In this document: piece after piece, positions 2,581-61,000 of the stretch
Layout of the letters: the number at the start of each line of letters is the position of its first letter
How positions within the stretch are numbered: the first letter of the stretch is position 1
Assembly (NCBI GenBank): GCA_020072965.1
Contig: JAIQFY010000027.1
Coordinates: 1-64,000, forward strand
Length of the DNA stretch: 64,000 nt
Origin: Terriglobia bacterium
GTDB taxonomy: Bacteria > Acidobacteriota > Terriglobia > JAIQFV01
Direction of reading: 5' to 3'
Notes under the pieces: generated by a model
Databases searched by the model: none
What the model was told of the DNA's origin: nothing
What the model saw: only the letters and a program-made list of their open reading frames with translations
Translations under genes and position numbers: made by a program

Positions 2581-2910
2581 CTACAGATTCAAGAAAGGAA
2601 TGGCAAACGGGATGTAATGGAAGGAAAAGACCGCCCCGGAATTCTGTTTAAATTCTTTTAAGGCAAACTCCCGGTAGATCATCTCATCCATCAGCTCCTC
2701 GTCCCACCCGTACATCTCAAAATAAAGCCACACGTCACACTGGGAGAAACAATCCCCGCTGCGCTGGACCATCACCATCTTTACTTCCGGGATGGAGGCA
2801 TACAGGTCTCGAACTTCATCGCGGATCACATGAGCGAGTTCGGAGGGTTCACGCCGCTGAAGAAGGGGTGTCCAGTTGCCCGGGAATACTGAAGACGCCT
2901 CAAAATCCAT
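2581..2910 (-). CDS. Hypothetical protein, 109 residues
   Basis: A small soluble protein of about 109 residues, with start ATG at 2908-2910 (a TTG two codons earlier is possible). I do not recognise the family. It is acidic, with aromatic-rich segments such as V-W-L-Y-F-E-M-Y-G-W-D-E-E-L-M-D-E-M near the middle and a hydrophobic tail. It has no signal peptide or membrane segment. It is supported mainly by protein-like composition and by a clean frame from start to stop; no good ribosome site is visible, and its upstream side is the heptamer-repeat spacer. It lies alone between a transporter remnant and the M24 peptidase gene. Confidence 0.5.
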   Translation of the reverse strand: MDFEASSVFPGNWTPLLQRREPSELAHVIRDEVRDLYASIPEVKMVMVQRSGDCFSQCDVWLYFEMYGWDEELMDEMIYREFALKEFKQNSGAVFSFHYIPFAIPFLNL

Positions 2911-2935
2911 GGTCAAAGATTCGAGTTCAAAGTTC

Positions 2936-3006
2936 GATGTTCAAGGTCCAAGGTCCGAAGTCCAAAGTCCAAGGTCCAAGATCCGAAGTCCAAAGTCCAA
3001 AGTCGA
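2936..3006. repeat. Heptamer array, unit GTCCAAA
   Basis: The spacer carries degenerate 7-base units of the form GTCCAAA, GTCCAAG, ATCCGAA in tandem, repeated about ten times in register. The 7-base period destroys any long meaningful protein reading. It is the left half of a two-part repeat spacer; the right half at 3053-3144 has units GTCAGAA when read on the opposite strand, so both halves carry GTC-led heptamers pointing inward. Confidence 0.8.
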
Positions 3007-3052
3007 GAAATCAGTTCCAAGTCCCAAATTAAAGCCCCAATGCTTCTTCCGG

Positions 3053-3144
3053 CCTCCGGCTTCCGGCTTCTAACCTCCGAACTCCGACTTCTGAATTCCT
3101 GCCTCTGGCTTCTGACTTCCGACTTCTGCCCTCTGACTTCATTC
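3053..3144. repeat. Heptamer array, unit CTTCTGA
   Basis: About a dozen degenerate units such as CTTCTGA, CTTCCGA, CCTCTGG and CTTCTGC follow each other with a 7-base period. On the minus strand the unit reads GTCAGAA. The array ends about 50 bases from the stop codon of the M24 peptidase gene. Confidence 0.8.
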
Positions 3145-3193: not shown

Positions 3194-4390
3194 TCAATCC
3201 CCCACATCCACAAGGACCAGTTCCCGCTGAATCGGCTGACCGGTAACGCGGATCTCGAAATTGTCGCCCATGTAAACGTCGATCTCGCTGCGGACCCCGA
3301 ATTCATTGGGCAAATAGACGCCCGGCTCAATGGAAAAGCAGGTCCGTGGGATCAGCTTCCGGTCGTCCTGGGTCTCCAGATTATCGATGTGGGCACCGTT
3401 GCCGTGGACTTCCAATCCGATATTGTGCCCGGTGCGGTGAATGAAGAATTTTCCGTACCCTTTCGATTCGATATGACCCCGGGAGACGTCATCCACCTCC
3501 CAGCCATAAGGGGTCTCCTTACGGGCAGCCCGCTGGTTCAAGTACTCCACCGCCGCGTCGCGCGCCCCGATCACCACTTTGAAAACCTCGTGATGGCGCT
3601 GGCTTGGACTTCTCCCGCAAAAACCCGTCCACGTGTAATCGGCATAGACCGAATCGTGCTTCTTCAACTTGGCCCAGTAATCGATTAAAACGAAATCTCC
3701 CTTCCGGATTTCCTTGTGCTTCTCCCGGGTGGGACCGTAGTGCGGGTTGCCGCTGTTTTCATTGACGGCGACGATCGGCGCATCGTAGGAAGTCAGATTC
3801 TCTGCTTCAAAACGTTCCCACATCCACTGTTGAATATCGTATTCGGTGGTCCGCTGACCGCGCCTCAAGCGGGCGCCGATCTCAGCATAGGCGCCATCCT
3901 TGATGGCCATTAGTTTTCTTTCCGCCTCGTGGTGCATGGCCAACTGGTCCTCACTCCATCGGGACTCAAAAAACTGAACGAGGTCCTTGGAGCTGACCAC
4001 TTTCTTCCCGAGGGATTGAATCAGCTCGATGGTGCCCGCATCCACCCGCGAGAGGTAAGGGATGGCACATTGGGGGGAGTATTCCATCGCGATGGTCGTG
4101 GCGTCCCTCATCATTTCCCTCAAATGCTCGGTCATGTCACGCCAGCTGAGGAACAGAATCTTCTTCCCGGGGAGAAAATCCAAGTTCGTCGGTTCGATGA
4201 CACTGTGCAATCGGACCGGCTCGCCCGATGGTGGAATCCAAAACCACCACCGACGGGTCAGCATCGTTCCTTCCTTCCAGCCCACCACCTTGCGGGCGAT
4301 AGGATTGCCTCCTTGAAAGTCGTACATCAGCCACCCATCAATTTTGTAATCTTTCAACGCAGCCTGAATGCCGGCAATGTCGATGCTCAT
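3194..4390 (-). CDS. M24 family metallopeptidase (Xaa-Pro aminopeptidase-like)
   Basis: A 398-residue cytoplasmic enzyme of the creatinase/prolidase fold. All five metal ligands of family M24 are visible: D237 (VLIDYWA), D251 (YADYTW), H322 (HRTGHNIG), E355 (FSIEPGVYL) and E369 (VRSEIDV); H217 (NPHYGP) fits the conserved substrate-binding histidine. Residues 1-150 form the creatinase N-terminal domain. Such enzymes usually use two Mn or Co ions to cut N-terminal X-Pro bonds, but the fold also includes creatinases and decarboxylating relatives, so the exact substrate is inferred. The neighbouring POT-type transporter and the S9B peptidase suggest use of proline-rich peptides. No signal peptide is present. 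Confidence 0.88.
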   Translation of the reverse strand: MSIDIAGIQAALKDYKIDGWLMYDFQGGNPIARKVVGWKEGTMLTRRWWFWIPPSGEPVRLHSVIEPTNLDFLPGKKILFLSWRDMTEHLREMMRDATTIAMEYSPQCAIPYLSRVDAGTIELIQSLGKKVVSSKDLVQFFESRWSEDQLAMHHEAERKLMAIKDGAYAEIGARLRRGQRTTEYDIQQWMWERFEAENLTSYDAPIVAVNENSGNPHYGPTREKHKEIRKGDFVLIDYWAKLKKHDSVYADYTWTGFCGRSPSQRHHEVFKVVIGARDAAVEYLNQRAARKETPYGWEVDDVSRGHIESKGYGKFFIHRTGHNIGLEVHGNGAHIDNLETQDDRKLIPRTCFSIEPGVYLPNEFGVRSEIDVYMGDNFEIRVTGQPIQRELVLVDVGD

Positions 4391-55031: not shown

Positions 55032-58000
55032 TCAGTCTCGCCCTAGCCCCGGGTGAAATAGGACCTGTTTCCATCCGTGGAAATAATGCTCCATGGCATC
55101 GTCGCAGTCGCCCTTCGCCAGCGCTTTGTCTCCTTTCAGCAACTCCTCATTCGCCTTATCAATATTCTCATGATCAGTCCCCTCCTGCTGAGCATCTGCA
55201 ATCACTACCAGGGCCAGGAGACGATCTGCGTTGATCAACCGATTGATGAAGGCCTGAAGAACGGCATCAGGGATGTCGCTTTTCTTGTCTCTGATGAGTT
55301 CAACCAGTACGTCGATGCTCTCCTTGTCTTCATTGAAGACCTTCTCCCCACGTTTCGTTTGCAGGTGGGTTGGATCATTCCAATAGCCACTATCGAGCGA
55401 CTTCGTCAAGTGTTGGATGACTTTGTCGAGCCTCTCCCTGTCTTGCTTATCGCCGACCGTAGCGCGGAGCGCCGAGATGGCGCTGAGAACACTTTGCTTG
55501 ATACCGAGAGGCCCCAGCACGATGATAGATACCTCGGCGCTCGCTACGCCACCGTGTCCGTCATTCACGGTAAGCGTCATGTTGTTCGCGCCAAGGGGAC
55601 AGGTGAGCGTTACCAGTGCGTTGGATGCTGACCCGCACGATCCGTTCCAGGAGAATGCGAGCGTGCCTCCGTCAGGAGCGCTGCCGGAGCCGCTCAAATT
55701 GACACTTGCGCCTGTGGGTGCCGTGGCATCAATTATTTGATTCGGCCCTGGATTGACTGTAGGTGGCACGTTCTGAATCCCCGGTGCGCCGGGATCAACA
55801 ATCTCTCCATTTCCGATGCCGTCGGCATCGAACGGAGCGAAGCCGTCGGTCAGAGTCAGGATCACATTGTTTCCCGGGAACACCGCATTTTGGACCGCCA
55901 CAAACTGCCCGGACGGGCCTAAGATCTTCCAATAACTATTGGCGGGGCCGGGCAGAGAGATGGTGACCGTAATCGTTCCGCCGGGTGACACTCCAGCCAC
56001 CGAGAAGGAAACCATTCCATAGGGGAACTGTACCCCGGGCGGAAGTTGTCCCAAGACGGGTGAGACGCTTACGGCATGCAGTGAAGTCCCGGGCGGAGAC
56101 GTGATAGTGATGGGCCCAGCCGGACCAATGACGGTGGCGATATTCCGCGCTGAGACCGTGAGACTGGCGGTGGCGGTGTGCGTCGAAGACGCCGACGTGC
56201 CGGTCACTGTGATGTTCGCTGTTCCACCCGTGGTCAACGTGCTAACGACGAGGGTGAGAGTGGAGCTACCGCCCGCCGTGACCGAGGCGGGGCTGAACGA
56301 GCCCGTCACGCCGGGGGGTAGACCTGAGACGGCAAGGCTGACGTTCTCCGCGACACCACTCGTGAGGGCCGTGGTGATCGTGAAGGTTGTCTTCGCGCCC
56401 TGAGTCAACGATGCGACGAGCGGGCTCATGGCGATTGAGAAGTTATTCGGTGCTGTGACCATAACATCGGCGATAGCGATGTGCGAAGCGGAGGCCGATG
56501 TGCCGGTCAATGTGAAGGTGGTCGTTCCGGTTGTGGCCGCTGCGCTGGCGTTGAGCGTAAGAGTGGAGCTACCGCCCGCCGTGACCGAGGCGGGGCTGAA
56601 CGAGCCCGTCACGCCGGGGGGTAGACCTGAGACGGCAAGGCTGACGTTCTCCGCGACACCACTCGTGAGGGCCGTGGTGATCGTGAAGGTGGTCGTCGCG
56701 CCCTGAGTCAGCGATGCGACGAGCGGGCTCATGGCGATCGAGAAGTTATTCGGCGCTGTGACCGTGATGGTGACGGTGGTCGTGTTGTCGGATAGATTGG
56801 GCTCCGCGAAGGCAACGCACCGCGGGTTCGGGGGGCAGGCGGTCACGGCGGCGGTGTTGGTCAGTGGGGCCGATGCCTGGCCGGCAGGCAGAGCGGCCGC
56901 ATCGATGACGGCATCGTATTCAACGGTCCACTTTCCACCCGGGAGCAATATTTGCTGTTGAGTTGAAGCGGTGATCCAGGTGCAAGCGAGTACCTGCGGT
57001 GTGCCACTCACCGTACAAGTTGGCTGGGGCTCTCCCGCCACGAGAGGAGTTCTCACCGTCCCCGAGGGCGAGGATTGGATCGTCAGCCCCGTGGGCAACG
57101 TGTCCGTCATTGTAAATACCCCGGACCCGGCGCCGCTCGTGGGTCCGTTGCTTACCTCAATGGTGAAGTGAACTGTTTCTCCGACCCCTGCCGTGGCCTT
57201 ATCGGACCGCTTTCGCACGGCCAGGTCCGGAGCGCTCACGGTGATGGTGACGGTGGTCGTGTTGTCGGATAGATTGAGCTCCGCGAAGGCGACGCACCGC
57301 GGGTTCGGGGGGCAGGCGGTCACGGTGGCGGTGTTGGTCAGTGTGGCCGATGTCTGGCCGGCAGGCAGAACGGCTGCATCGATGACGGCATCGTATTCAA
57401 CCGTCCACTTTCCACCCGGGAGCAACATTTGCTGTTGAGTTGAAGCGGTGGCCCAAGTGCAAGTGAGTACCTGTGGCGAGCCACCCACCATACAAGTCGG
57501 CTGGGGCTCTCCCGGAACAAGAGGAGTTCTCACGGGCCCCAAGGGGGAGGATTGGATCGTCAATCCCGCCGGCAACGTGTCCGTCATTGTAAACACCCCG
57601 GACGCGGCGCCGCTCGTGGGTCCGTTGCTCACTTCAATGGTGAAGTGCACCGTTTCCCCGACGCCTGCCGTGGCCTTATCGGACACCTTCCGCACGGCCA
57701 GCTCCGGAGCGTGCACGGTGACGGTGGCGGTGGCCGTGTTGTCGGATAGATTGGGCTCCGCGAAGGCGACGCACCGCGGGTTCGGGGGGCAGGCGGTCAC
57801 GGTGGCGGTGTTGGTCAGTGTGGCCGATGTCTGGCCGGCAGGCAGAACGGCCGCATCGATGACGGCATCGTATTCAACCGTCCACTTTCCACCTGGGAGC
57901 AACATTTGCTGTTGAGTTGAAGCGGTGGTCCAGGTGCAAGTGAGTACCTGCGGTGTGCCACTCACCGTACAAGTGGGCAGGGGCTCTCCCGCAACGAGAG

Positions 58001-61000
58001 GAGTTCTCGGGTTCCCCGGGGTCGCGGAATTGATTGTCAGCCCCGCCGGCAACGTGTCCGTCATTGTAAATACCCCGGACGCGGCGCCGCTTGTGGATCC
58101 GTTGCTCATTTCAATAGTGTAGTGCACCGTTTCCCCGACGCCTGCCGTGGCCTTATCGGAGAGCTTTCGCACGGCCAGGTCCGGAGCCCGAACGGTGACG
58201 GTGGCGGTGGTCGTGTTGTCGGATAGATTGGGCTCCGGCAGGGCGGTGCACGTGCTTGAGGTCGGAGAGCAGGCGGTCACGGTAGCGGTGTTGGTTAGTG
58301 TGGCTGAAGTCTGACCGGTGGGCAGAACCCCCGTGTCGACGACGGCATCGTATTCGAGGGTCCACGTTCCGCCAGGAGGCAATTGATTCTGGACAGAACT
58401 GTAGGCCCATGTGCAAGTGAGTACCTGCGGAGAGACCGACACCGTGCAGAATGGCATGAGCTCTCCTGGCAGGAGTGGAACTCTCAGGTTCCCCAGGGTC
58501 GTGGAATCGATCGTCAGCCCCACCGGCAACGTGTCCGTCATCGTGATTTCCCCATATGTGGCGTCGGCATTGGTTCCGTTGCTCACTTCAATGGTGTAGT
58601 GCACCGTTTCCCCGACGCCTGCCGTGGTCCTACCGGACAGTTTCCGCACGGACAAGTCCGGACCGGGTAGAGGGGCCGCCACAAACATGAAAGCATGGCC
58701 TTGCCCGTTGATTCTGCCATTCCCTGCGATCTGTCCATTGTCATTGACAGTCACTGCCGAATCCAAACTCTGCCAGGCCGGGGACGTGCTCGAAATTGCC
58801 TTCATCACACCGTTTCTATAGATGAATGCACGCTGTCCGTTCGCTGTCGTTGACGCACCCACCGTCGTGCCCGAGCCATTGACAGCGATCGCCCAGCTCC
58901 GTGCCCCCCCCAGAGTTCCGAGGTCACTCATCGCGCCTTGATTGTACAAAAAGGCATGATAGCCCCCGGTTCCCTTATCGACACGACCCACCACTTGGCC
59001 AGAACTGTTCATGGCAACAGCAAAACTCGACAGTCCCCCGGCGCCGATGTCATTCATCACTCCGCGGTCATAAAAAAAGGCATGCTGGGGGTTGGATGCC
59101 GCTGTCGACTGTCCCATCACCTGCCCCAGGTCATTGATGGCGTGGGCTTCGCTATGGCCAAAGAGCCCCCCTCCGAGTGTACCGAGATCCGTCATCCCGC
59201 TGGTGCCATAAAGGAAGGCATGAAAGCCACCGGTACTTTTATTTGCCGCTCCCACCACCTGGCCGGAGTTGTTGATGGCGTAAGCCGTGCTATCCGGTCC
59301 ACCAAGCGTGCCGAGGTCCGTCATCCCGACGCTGTTGCTATAGAGGAACGCATGCGAGCTTCCATCGGCAGTAAATGACCATCCGGTCACCTGGCCGGAG
59401 TTGTTGATGGCGTTGGCAAAGCTGTCTCTTCCACCGAACGTGCCAAGGTCGGCCATCACCCCGTTGCTGTAAAGGAAGGCGTGCGCGACGCCCGCGGCCG
59501 TCATGGAATACCCAACCACCTGGCCGGAATCGTTGATGGCGGAAGGTATGATGTATGTCCCTCCTGGAAGCGTGCCAAGATCGGTCATCACCCCGTTGCT
59601 GTAAATAAAGGCGTGTGTCGCGCCAGTGGCGGTGTAGGAGTAGCCGACTACCTGGCCCGAACTGTTCATGGCCGTGACAGCACTTGCTTGCCCACCGAGC
59701 GTACCGAGGTCAATGATGTTGAATGCCTGCTCCGGCGGCGGCGTTATAAACGCATTGATGGTGATCAAAATGCCTGTGCTGGCTGTCAGTCCGTTCGCGT
59801 CGGTGACGAATACGGTGAAGGTATAAATGCCTTCCAGCGGGGAGGGGTTGGATAAAATCCCGGTTGCCGCGTCAATCCTAAACCCGACAAGAAATCCGGG
59901 CGCGCTCCAGGTATACGGCCCTGTGCCGCCGGAGGCCGACAACGCAAGGCTGTACGGGGCACCCTCCGCCCCCTCTGCAACTGCAGGGGTAATAATGGAA
60001 AAGTCGATGACGGTGGGTCCTGTGAGTTCTCCCGTTTCCGGGAGTCTCCCCGCGATGGTTCCGTCCGATGCTTCGAAGTGGTAGGCGTGCGACCCGACTG
60101 CGAGCGTTGTGGTGAAGGTGTACTGCTCGCCATCCGTGAAATCGCCATTGCGTGACAAGGGGTCCGTGGCCGCGGTGTCCTGCGACATCGCTGAACAGGC
60201 GCCGTCGATGCAGACGTTGACCGAGGTGGGCGCCAGATTCCCCGTGTGTGAATAAACAGTCTTGAAAGTAAACACGGTAGACGCGGTGCCGGTGTCGGGA
60301 TTGACGCCATCGGTCCCATATCCGGTCTCACCAGAATAAGAAAGCACTGGGGCCGGAGGAGGAGGGGGGGTGTTTATCATGGCGATGGCATGGTCATATC
60401 CCGAAGCCACGGCCGCAACGTTCGCCAGTCCGCTCACTTGGACGGGGAGATCGTTTTCAACGGTCGGCTGATTGTCGGCCGGGTTTCCGGCCAGGTAAGT
60501 TCCCCACTCCCAGACCGTCCCGTCGCCCATGAGGGCCAGGGTGTGATTCATCCCTGCCGTGACCGCGATGACGTTGTTCAATGCATTCACCTGAGCGGCG
60601 GGAGTATGGCTCCGGGAATTAGTCCGGCCGATGGGATCGTTGGTCCCGTTTCCGAGCTGGCCGAACTGGTTATTGCCCCATGTCCAGACGGTGCCATCAT
60701 TTTTGAGAGCCACGGTATGACTGCCGTGACTGGCCACGGCGGTCACGCCACTCAGTCCGGCCACCTGAGAGGGAGTCGGGCCGGGGGAATAGACGCTCCC
60801 CACTAACACGGAATCTCCCCAGGCCCAGACCGTGCCGTCGTTTTTGACGGCAACGGAATGTCCCTCGCCTGCGGCTATGGCGACGGCGCCTGTGAACGCC
60901 ACTACAGGTAGAGGTTCTATTCCGGCCGGCTCGAAAGCGAGTTGCAGGGAGGCGTTGGATCCCCAAGCCAGGACCGTACCGTCGCTCTTGAGGGCGAGGG

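Follow-up and report, generated by a model that had tools for sequence, protein, structure and literature searches.

Facing heptamer arrays in an Acidobacteriota spacer: a probable ORF-less copy of a mobile hairpin element akin to 23S rRNA intervening sequences

STRRs are short intergenic heptamer arrays of cyanobacteria. MITEs and REPINs are high-copy inverted elements that lack an open reading frame (ORF) and have a longer, gene-carrying relative. In Coxiella burnetii, according to the available part of one paper (PMC4990558), the 23S rRNA intervening sequence (IVS) has inverted, complementary ends at which RNase III cuts, and two to three strain-variable GACAGAT heptamers lie ahead of the S23p gene. 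The accessible portion of Rehm 2015 (PMC4692102) reports convergent GGGAATC pairs in Xcc (70, of 186) and Xac (75, of 183), as well as GGGGAYT repeats in Nostoc. These repeats are intergenic and heptamer length varies between species. That portion contains no occurrence of S23 or four-helix proteins; in a search of PDB sequences, XCC0516 of X. campestris (PDB 2gsc) matches the PF05635 query. In Beggiatoaceae, TAACTGA sets are described as direct repeats, with just one inverted case in the genome (PMC4679880, in excerpt). The excerpt of one further paper says that PF05635 resembles Avd, and the 23S rRNA IVP is listed in the legend, also an excerpt, to a figure of CRISPR-associated genes. Among the papers listed in our search of the open-licence literature, none connects heptamer arrays with PF05635 genes at gene junctions.

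Here, we describe one spacer in a stretch of 64,000 nucleotides (the window, meaning that whole stretch). We give a probability of about 0.7 to the reading that this spacer holds an ORF-less copy of a mobile hairpin element, one with kinship to 23S rRNA IVSs. Such an element has a single short unit, as a rule of 7 bases and sometimes of 8 or 9, repeated in two arrays that face each other. Full copies enclose a gene for a four-helix-bundle protein of the S23, or 23S-rRNA-intervening-sequence, type (PF05635). Copies lie in the few bases from a stop codon to the next start, mostly between same-direction genes, where an RNA hairpin can be tolerated. The elements would move, with ORF-less copies mobilised in trans by those carrying PF05635, and slippage would lengthen or shorten the arms. 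By analogy with what is reported for 23S rRNA IVSs, RNase III may trim the element transcripts.

The window spacer and its orthologs

The initial annotation described two facing heptamer arrays in one spacer, forming a loose inverted structure of two related heptamers. Both arrays are present and that description is correct. The features are as follows.

2581 to 2910, minus strand: downstream gene, an ORF call, with its ATG at 2910, 13 bases off the left arm
2924 to 3004, plus strand: left arm, about 11 units of GTYCAAR (family F1), 11.6 units in TRF
3005 to 3045, no strand: loop separating the arms, containing the motif AAAGCCCCAATGCTTCTTCC
3046 to 3140, minus strand: right arm, GTCRGAA / GCCGGAA units (family F2) in minus-strand reading, from TRF
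3194 to 4390, minus strand: upstream gene for an M24 metallopeptidase (Pfam PF00557, E 2.9e-39), with its stop 53 bases from the right arm

The arms are the top two lag-7 segments of the window, with 49 and 40 matches in 60; the next has 29. Lag-7 identity is 0.80 over 2924-3006 for the left arm and 0.67 over 3046-3141 for the right. Relative to the interval first given, 2936-3144, the left array starts 12 bases earlier. Strict 7-base register, claimed for both, fits the left arm; in the right, TRF reports 8% indels within 3086-3140. Elsewhere in the window, at 56764-58662, TRF finds a 477-base unit in tandem (4 copies, 86% match).

The spacer lies between two same-direction protein genes, outside any 23S rRNA gene. 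A Pfam search with the downstream gene gave no match. This gene is present in 3 of 101 genomes searched, and an element is at the junction in all three. The ORF list has no ORF and no PF05635 gene between the arms. Arm-to-arm folding is only moderately better than for shuffled sequences (z of -1.64 for RNA and +0.27 for DNA). With arms from two families, the window copy is probably worn or composite.

The sister species (G001) is collinear with the window region and about 85% identical. Its spacer has the same arms, altered in length by whole units; the left arm is 77 bp (11 units) longer and the right arm 7 bp (1 unit) shorter. Among the loci examined, the loop motif is seen again in this ortholog and, within the sister species, in two further elements. 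In another genome of the same family (G002), with an 84% identical peptidase, the same junction has facing heptamers of a different type, AGGTGTC. This junction sequence also stands in JAQUPQ010000018.1, from a Terriglobia MAG.

By eye, we sorted arms into six families: F1, GTYCAAR; F2, RGYCRGA; F3, AGGTNNY; F4, CAGCNNT; F5, CAGTTNN; and F6, CAAATTC. A common spacer order is F3-F2-loop-F1', or the reverse, with F3-F3', F4-F4' or F5-F5' elsewhere. Matching of the outermost families is above permuted levels in the window's own genome (G000, p 0.008) and not in G001 (0.19). Matching of arms across the same spacer is not significant (p 0.097 in G000, 0.66 in G001 and 0.085 in G011). Also by eye, G001 has two elements, about 5 kb apart, with a common loop in opposite orientation, and their G000 counterparts share a different loop. 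A core, YCAR, in every left arm was proposed after viewing G000 and G001. It fails in G248, which has left arms like AGTGCTG (YTGR).

Period-7 tracts and the genes that they bracket

At E <= 1e-3, the left arm finds 48 places, and the right arm 54, in the 5.92 Mb of their own genome. The excess of period-7 tracts over shuffled sequence, on which the initial annotation staked its reading, is clear. At a threshold of 18, there are 15 lag-7 tracts per 400 kb in G000 (C1:1-340000 plus C70:1-60000, chosen as long contigs and not for repeats) and 18 per 400 kb in G001, compared with 0 in block shuffles (lags 6-9). All lags of 3-30 other than multiples of 7 together give 3 and 16 tracts in the two 400-kb samples, respectively. 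Two relatives in the class, G045 and G021, have 0 tracts in 200 kb each. At a threshold of 12, G045 has 4 tracts, without clear orientation, and G021 has none; the PF05635 profile is also without a match in both. Extrapolation from 12 clusters per 400 kb gives a genome total of roughly 180. Using simple codon-model gene calls, clusters mostly within a called gene number 0 of 12, 3 of 62 and 2 of 20, though 75-83% of the sequence is coding.

Tracts face one another genome-wide. For adjacent tracts no more than 350 bp apart, at a lower threshold, 56 pairs face and 1 is back to back, using an orientation motif fixed after the first samples had been viewed. Unselected samples contribute 7:0 and 11:0, the window 1:0, and sets fetched for holding arrays 25:1, 4:0 and 8:0. 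A looser coding, by family blocks, gives facing to not facing ratios of 39:4 (G000), 20:5 (G001) and 8:2 (G011). Partnerless F1 arrays, in a single direction and spaced 0.6-4 kb, occur at L155 (contig C35 of G000) and L156 (C10). Contig C35 also abounds in direct repeats of other kinds and in small genes that are duplicated.

PF05635 loci were picked regardless of repeats, 82 in total. The first 40 are from G000 (10 loci for 12 hits), G248 (17 of 17), G027 (7 of 17), G003 (2 of 4), G053 (1 of 3), G010 (1 of 3) and G001 (2 of 13). A further 15 are plasmid records, from 31 hit records (hits 1-5, 7, 8, 10-12, 14-16, 18 and 23). The remaining 27 are best matches, one per genome, in a 149-genome sample of the phylum, omitting three already in the first set. 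Note that the 82 include near-identical pairs, such as L252/L253 and L254/L255. Genes were scored as bracketed if the inverted score was at least 12 and exceeded the direct score, with lags 5-10 tried.

Facing arrays bracket the PF05635 gene at 71 of the 82 loci, in Acidobacteriota genomes and on mostly cyanobacterial plasmids (33 of the first 40, 14 of 15 plasmid records, and 24 of 27 further loci). The unit period is 7 at 60 bracketed loci, 8 at 10 and 9 at one. Hence, the unit is not always seven bases. Arms of 8-base units are seen at L271, L273, L280, L282, L287 and L290, and of 9-base units at L285. Among the first 40 loci, lag 7 appears on both sides in 33, and any one of lags 4-6 and 8-13 in at most 1; the inverted score exceeds the direct in 32 of the 33. 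Arms at the same locus score 25.6, compared with 7.2 (sd 0.99) when permuted (0 of 20000 permutations). In the window's own genome, each of the by-eye families F1-F6 brackets some PF05635 gene; window-type ends surround such genes at L216 (F1 arms) and L215 (F2 arms). The initial annotation is partly supported; it lacked both the genome-wide facing rule and the arrays as arms of a PF05635-enclosing element family.

Eleven of the 82 loci fail the bracketing test, and some of these (L293, L228) look like near misses by eye. L217 and L233 are array-less PF05635 matches with common flanking wording of a different, longer-gene context (the L217 frame is 444 aa), possibly a separate PF05635 branch. 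A search for PF05635 in phages gave no match. An array used as a DNA query against plasmids also gave none, noting that BLAST masks simple repeats.

Seven genomes, of 297 in the phylum, have F1 arrays, and every one of the 7 carries PF05635, compared with 75 of 149 genomes in the phylum sample. G224 and G067 are congeners; the first has 328 F1 matches together with 6 PF05635 genes, and the second has 0 of each. A control pattern, F1 read backward, also matched some genomes, perhaps as other heptamers.

Arms vary with the protein that they enclose. Between genomes, arm and protein similarity correlate with a Spearman coefficient of 0.167 (64 proteins, 2 of 3000 permutations as high; 70 of 71 proteins were usable). 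Arm similarity climbs from 0.133, for protein scores below 0.4, to 0.515, for scores of 0.7-0.85. Inside individual genomes, this relation is weak, with 439 (G000), 77 (G248) and 127 (G027) of 2000 permutations as high. Joint inheritance accounts for this covariation as well as binding does.

One rival explanation is plain simple-sequence repeats. Polymerase slippage would spread heptamers locally, with no mobile element, and PF05635 genes would be passengers. Length differences are indeed of whole units, and the available parts of Rehm 2015 (PMC4692102) and MacGregor 2015 (PMC4679880) cite heptamer over-representation, with a 7-base polymerase contact as cause. However, slippage gives neither facing arms nor a single gene family bracketed at this frequency. 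It also gives no common loops in dispersed copies and no replacement of whole spacers at fixed junctions. We consider this explanation unlikely.

Elements at fixed gene junctions

G248 belongs to another family of the phylum. Its C15:1-100000 holds 32 lag-7 tracts, with 0 or 1 at each of lags 4-6 and 8-13. By eye, fourteen facing pairs are built from eight heptamers. Arms score 22.1 against the partner in their own spacer, compared with 7.7 (sd 1.8) when permuted (0 of 20000 permutations as high) and 5.7 in direct orientation. Elements often lie right against the flanking codons, with 4 and 0, 6 and 6, or 5 and 4 bp to the stop and the start. One of 15 lies inside a called frame, and 12 of the 14 with both neighbours called are in same-direction gene pairs.

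Sixteen species of this genus were compared at six junctions, picked for a G248 element, and two control junctions, picked for G248 having none. Heptad tracts are in 54 of 73 junction rows (48 of 67 excluding G248), and the heptamer often differs at one junction. Control junctions have tracts in 0 of 27 rows. Of the 54, 37 begin no more than 7 nt after the stop and 44 end no more than 12 nt before the start. In the other 19 rows, relatives lack such a tract at the junction. Ten of these have gaps of -4 to 13 bp, start-stop overlaps included, and some with longer gaps have hairpins that are weaker or spaced otherwise. Any gap of 20 or less was left unscanned and counted as tract-less. Rows were excluded for alignments starting past residue 6, no stop, or gaps below -60 or above 700, as was junction J4b. 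By eye, several of the genes look like those of a nuo operon. At junction J3, inserts of 433-504 bp are found in at least seven species, and PF05635 matches lie in the G350 and G355 inserts (E 3.8e-15 and 5.4e-13). With junction ends side by side, no constant target-site duplication is evident, though divergence between these species may hide one.

The initial annotation was right to point to the cyanobacterial heptamer repeats. It lacked the plasmids of that group, on which the same layout brackets PF05635 genes. Lag-7 tracts flank the gene on both sides in 13 of 15 plasmid records, and 14 of 15 follow the facing rule. The exception, L250 of Pseudanabaena, fails because its inner arrays share one direction. 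On plasmids of Pseudanabaena galeata and Anabaena sp. 90, the gene lies between cas6 and cas4. On a plasmid of Picosynechococcus sp. PCC 7003, it is between cas10 and a cmr3-family gene (the cas-flanked loci, all on cyanobacterial plasmids, are L250, L258 and L261). These named copies are all between protein genes, not in 23S rRNA, and the remaining plasmid PF05635 genes sit among other genes. PF05635 shares its direction with the genes on either side in 11 of 13 annotated plasmid records and at 10 of 10 phylum loci having both flanks callable. Of the other 14 phylum loci, eight have one callable flank (6 with the gene, 2 against), one has opposed flanks and five have neither. Selection for co-expression and transcript-tied insertion fit equally.

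Tight placement between stop and start codons, mostly in same-direction pairs, would also be expected of RNA hairpins within operons, built from heptamers at hand and selected for roles in mRNA processing, stability or bidirectional termination. As a replacement for the element reading, we think this quite unlikely, since relatives lack the hairpins at these junctions, in some cases with start and stop codons overlapping, and PF05635 is left unexplained. Moreover, gene-pair contexts of the clusters barely differ from those of other long gaps, and divergent pairs hold clusters too (1 of 12, 9 of 57 and 2 of 20). On the same grounds, we rejected bidirectional termination as a sole role. Note that functional hairpins and mobile elements can be compatible.

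Assessment and relation to known systems

Mobilisation of REP/REPIN-like elements by RAYT (Y1_Tnp) transposases is highly improbable: Y1_Tnp genes are numerous in G000 (36, the highest of 25 genomes compared), G001 (19) and G248 (15), but arrays are on both sides at 0 of 28 usable Y1_Tnp loci in these genomes (leaving out L307 and L310, with no left flank; single-sided tracts number 1 at lag 7 and 2 at lag 9), and other array carriers have 0-10 such genes. We also rejected the idea of a reverse transcriptase in every carrier, as for an element driven by that enzyme with an Avd-like partner. RVT_1 is present in 8 of the 10 carriers of PF05635 and in 3 of the 12 genomes that lack it, and is absent from the carriers G027 and G116.

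Against reading the spacer as a copy of a mobile element stand its lack of an ORF, the two families of the window arms, their moderate folding, the non-significant arm matching in G000, G001 and G011, the lone one-direction arrays at L155 and L156, the loci that fail bracketing, and the weak covariation inside single genomes. No movement was observed, and neither a target-site duplication nor an insertion enzyme was found for the elements. What the data show is the arm geometry and the tie between arms and PF05635; movement, mobilisation in trans, arm slippage and RNase III trimming are inferred. The window feature seems to be ordinary, an ORF-less copy from a family of elements that is itself seemingly undescribed.

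Our data suggest that the puzzling heptamer repeats seen in several bacteria belong to a family of mobile elements. We lean, by a little, towards a wider claim: that cyanobacterial, Xanthomonas and Acidobacteriota heptamers, together with S23p IVSs, are one class of mobile RNA hairpin. Here, a four-helix-bundle protein, together with arms of 7-9-base units particular to it, would enter operon junctions, those of cas genes included, and ORF-less copies would be moved in trans. A repeat class is tied to the PF05635 protein family, and both become testable. If real, the element family would explain the facing arrays and their patchiness among close relatives. It would also explain PF05635 genes within unrelated operons, such as cas6/cas4 in Anabaena sp. 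90 and cas10/cmr3-family gene in Picosynechococcus. On the wider claim, element insertion may account in part for reports of PF05635 close to CRISPR and retroelement genes. Naming PF05635 from its neighbours may mislead.

Tandem 7-base units in an intergenic position are found here, as in STRRs. Like STRRs and, in the excerpt available, TAACTGA repeats, the present arrays are short, intergenic and heptameric; TAACTGA repeats are mostly direct, not facing. MITEs and REPINs likewise combine ORF-less copies with a gene-carrying relative, and longer relatives with the same ends are in the window's own genome (L216, L215). However, the partner here is PF05635, not a known transposase, no usable Y1_Tnp locus (0 of 28) is framed by elements, and the arms are arrays of 7-9-base units. 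The GGGAATC repeats of Xanthomonas and GGGGAYT repeats of Nostoc are also intergenic heptamers, with convergent pairs (in Xanthomonas) and species-variable length; in its accessible portion, Rehm 2015 did not in general find them associated with mobile elements (PMC4692102). As far as the excerpts describe them, 23S rRNA IVSs with S23p share with the present elements a protein family, complementary ends, and heptamers by the S23p gene. An S23p/PF05635 gene within inverted ends is found in the element family (71 of 82 loci) and not in the window copy. While IVSs sit in 23S rRNA genes, the present elements lie between protein genes, have long arms made of unit arrays, and include many ORF-less copies.
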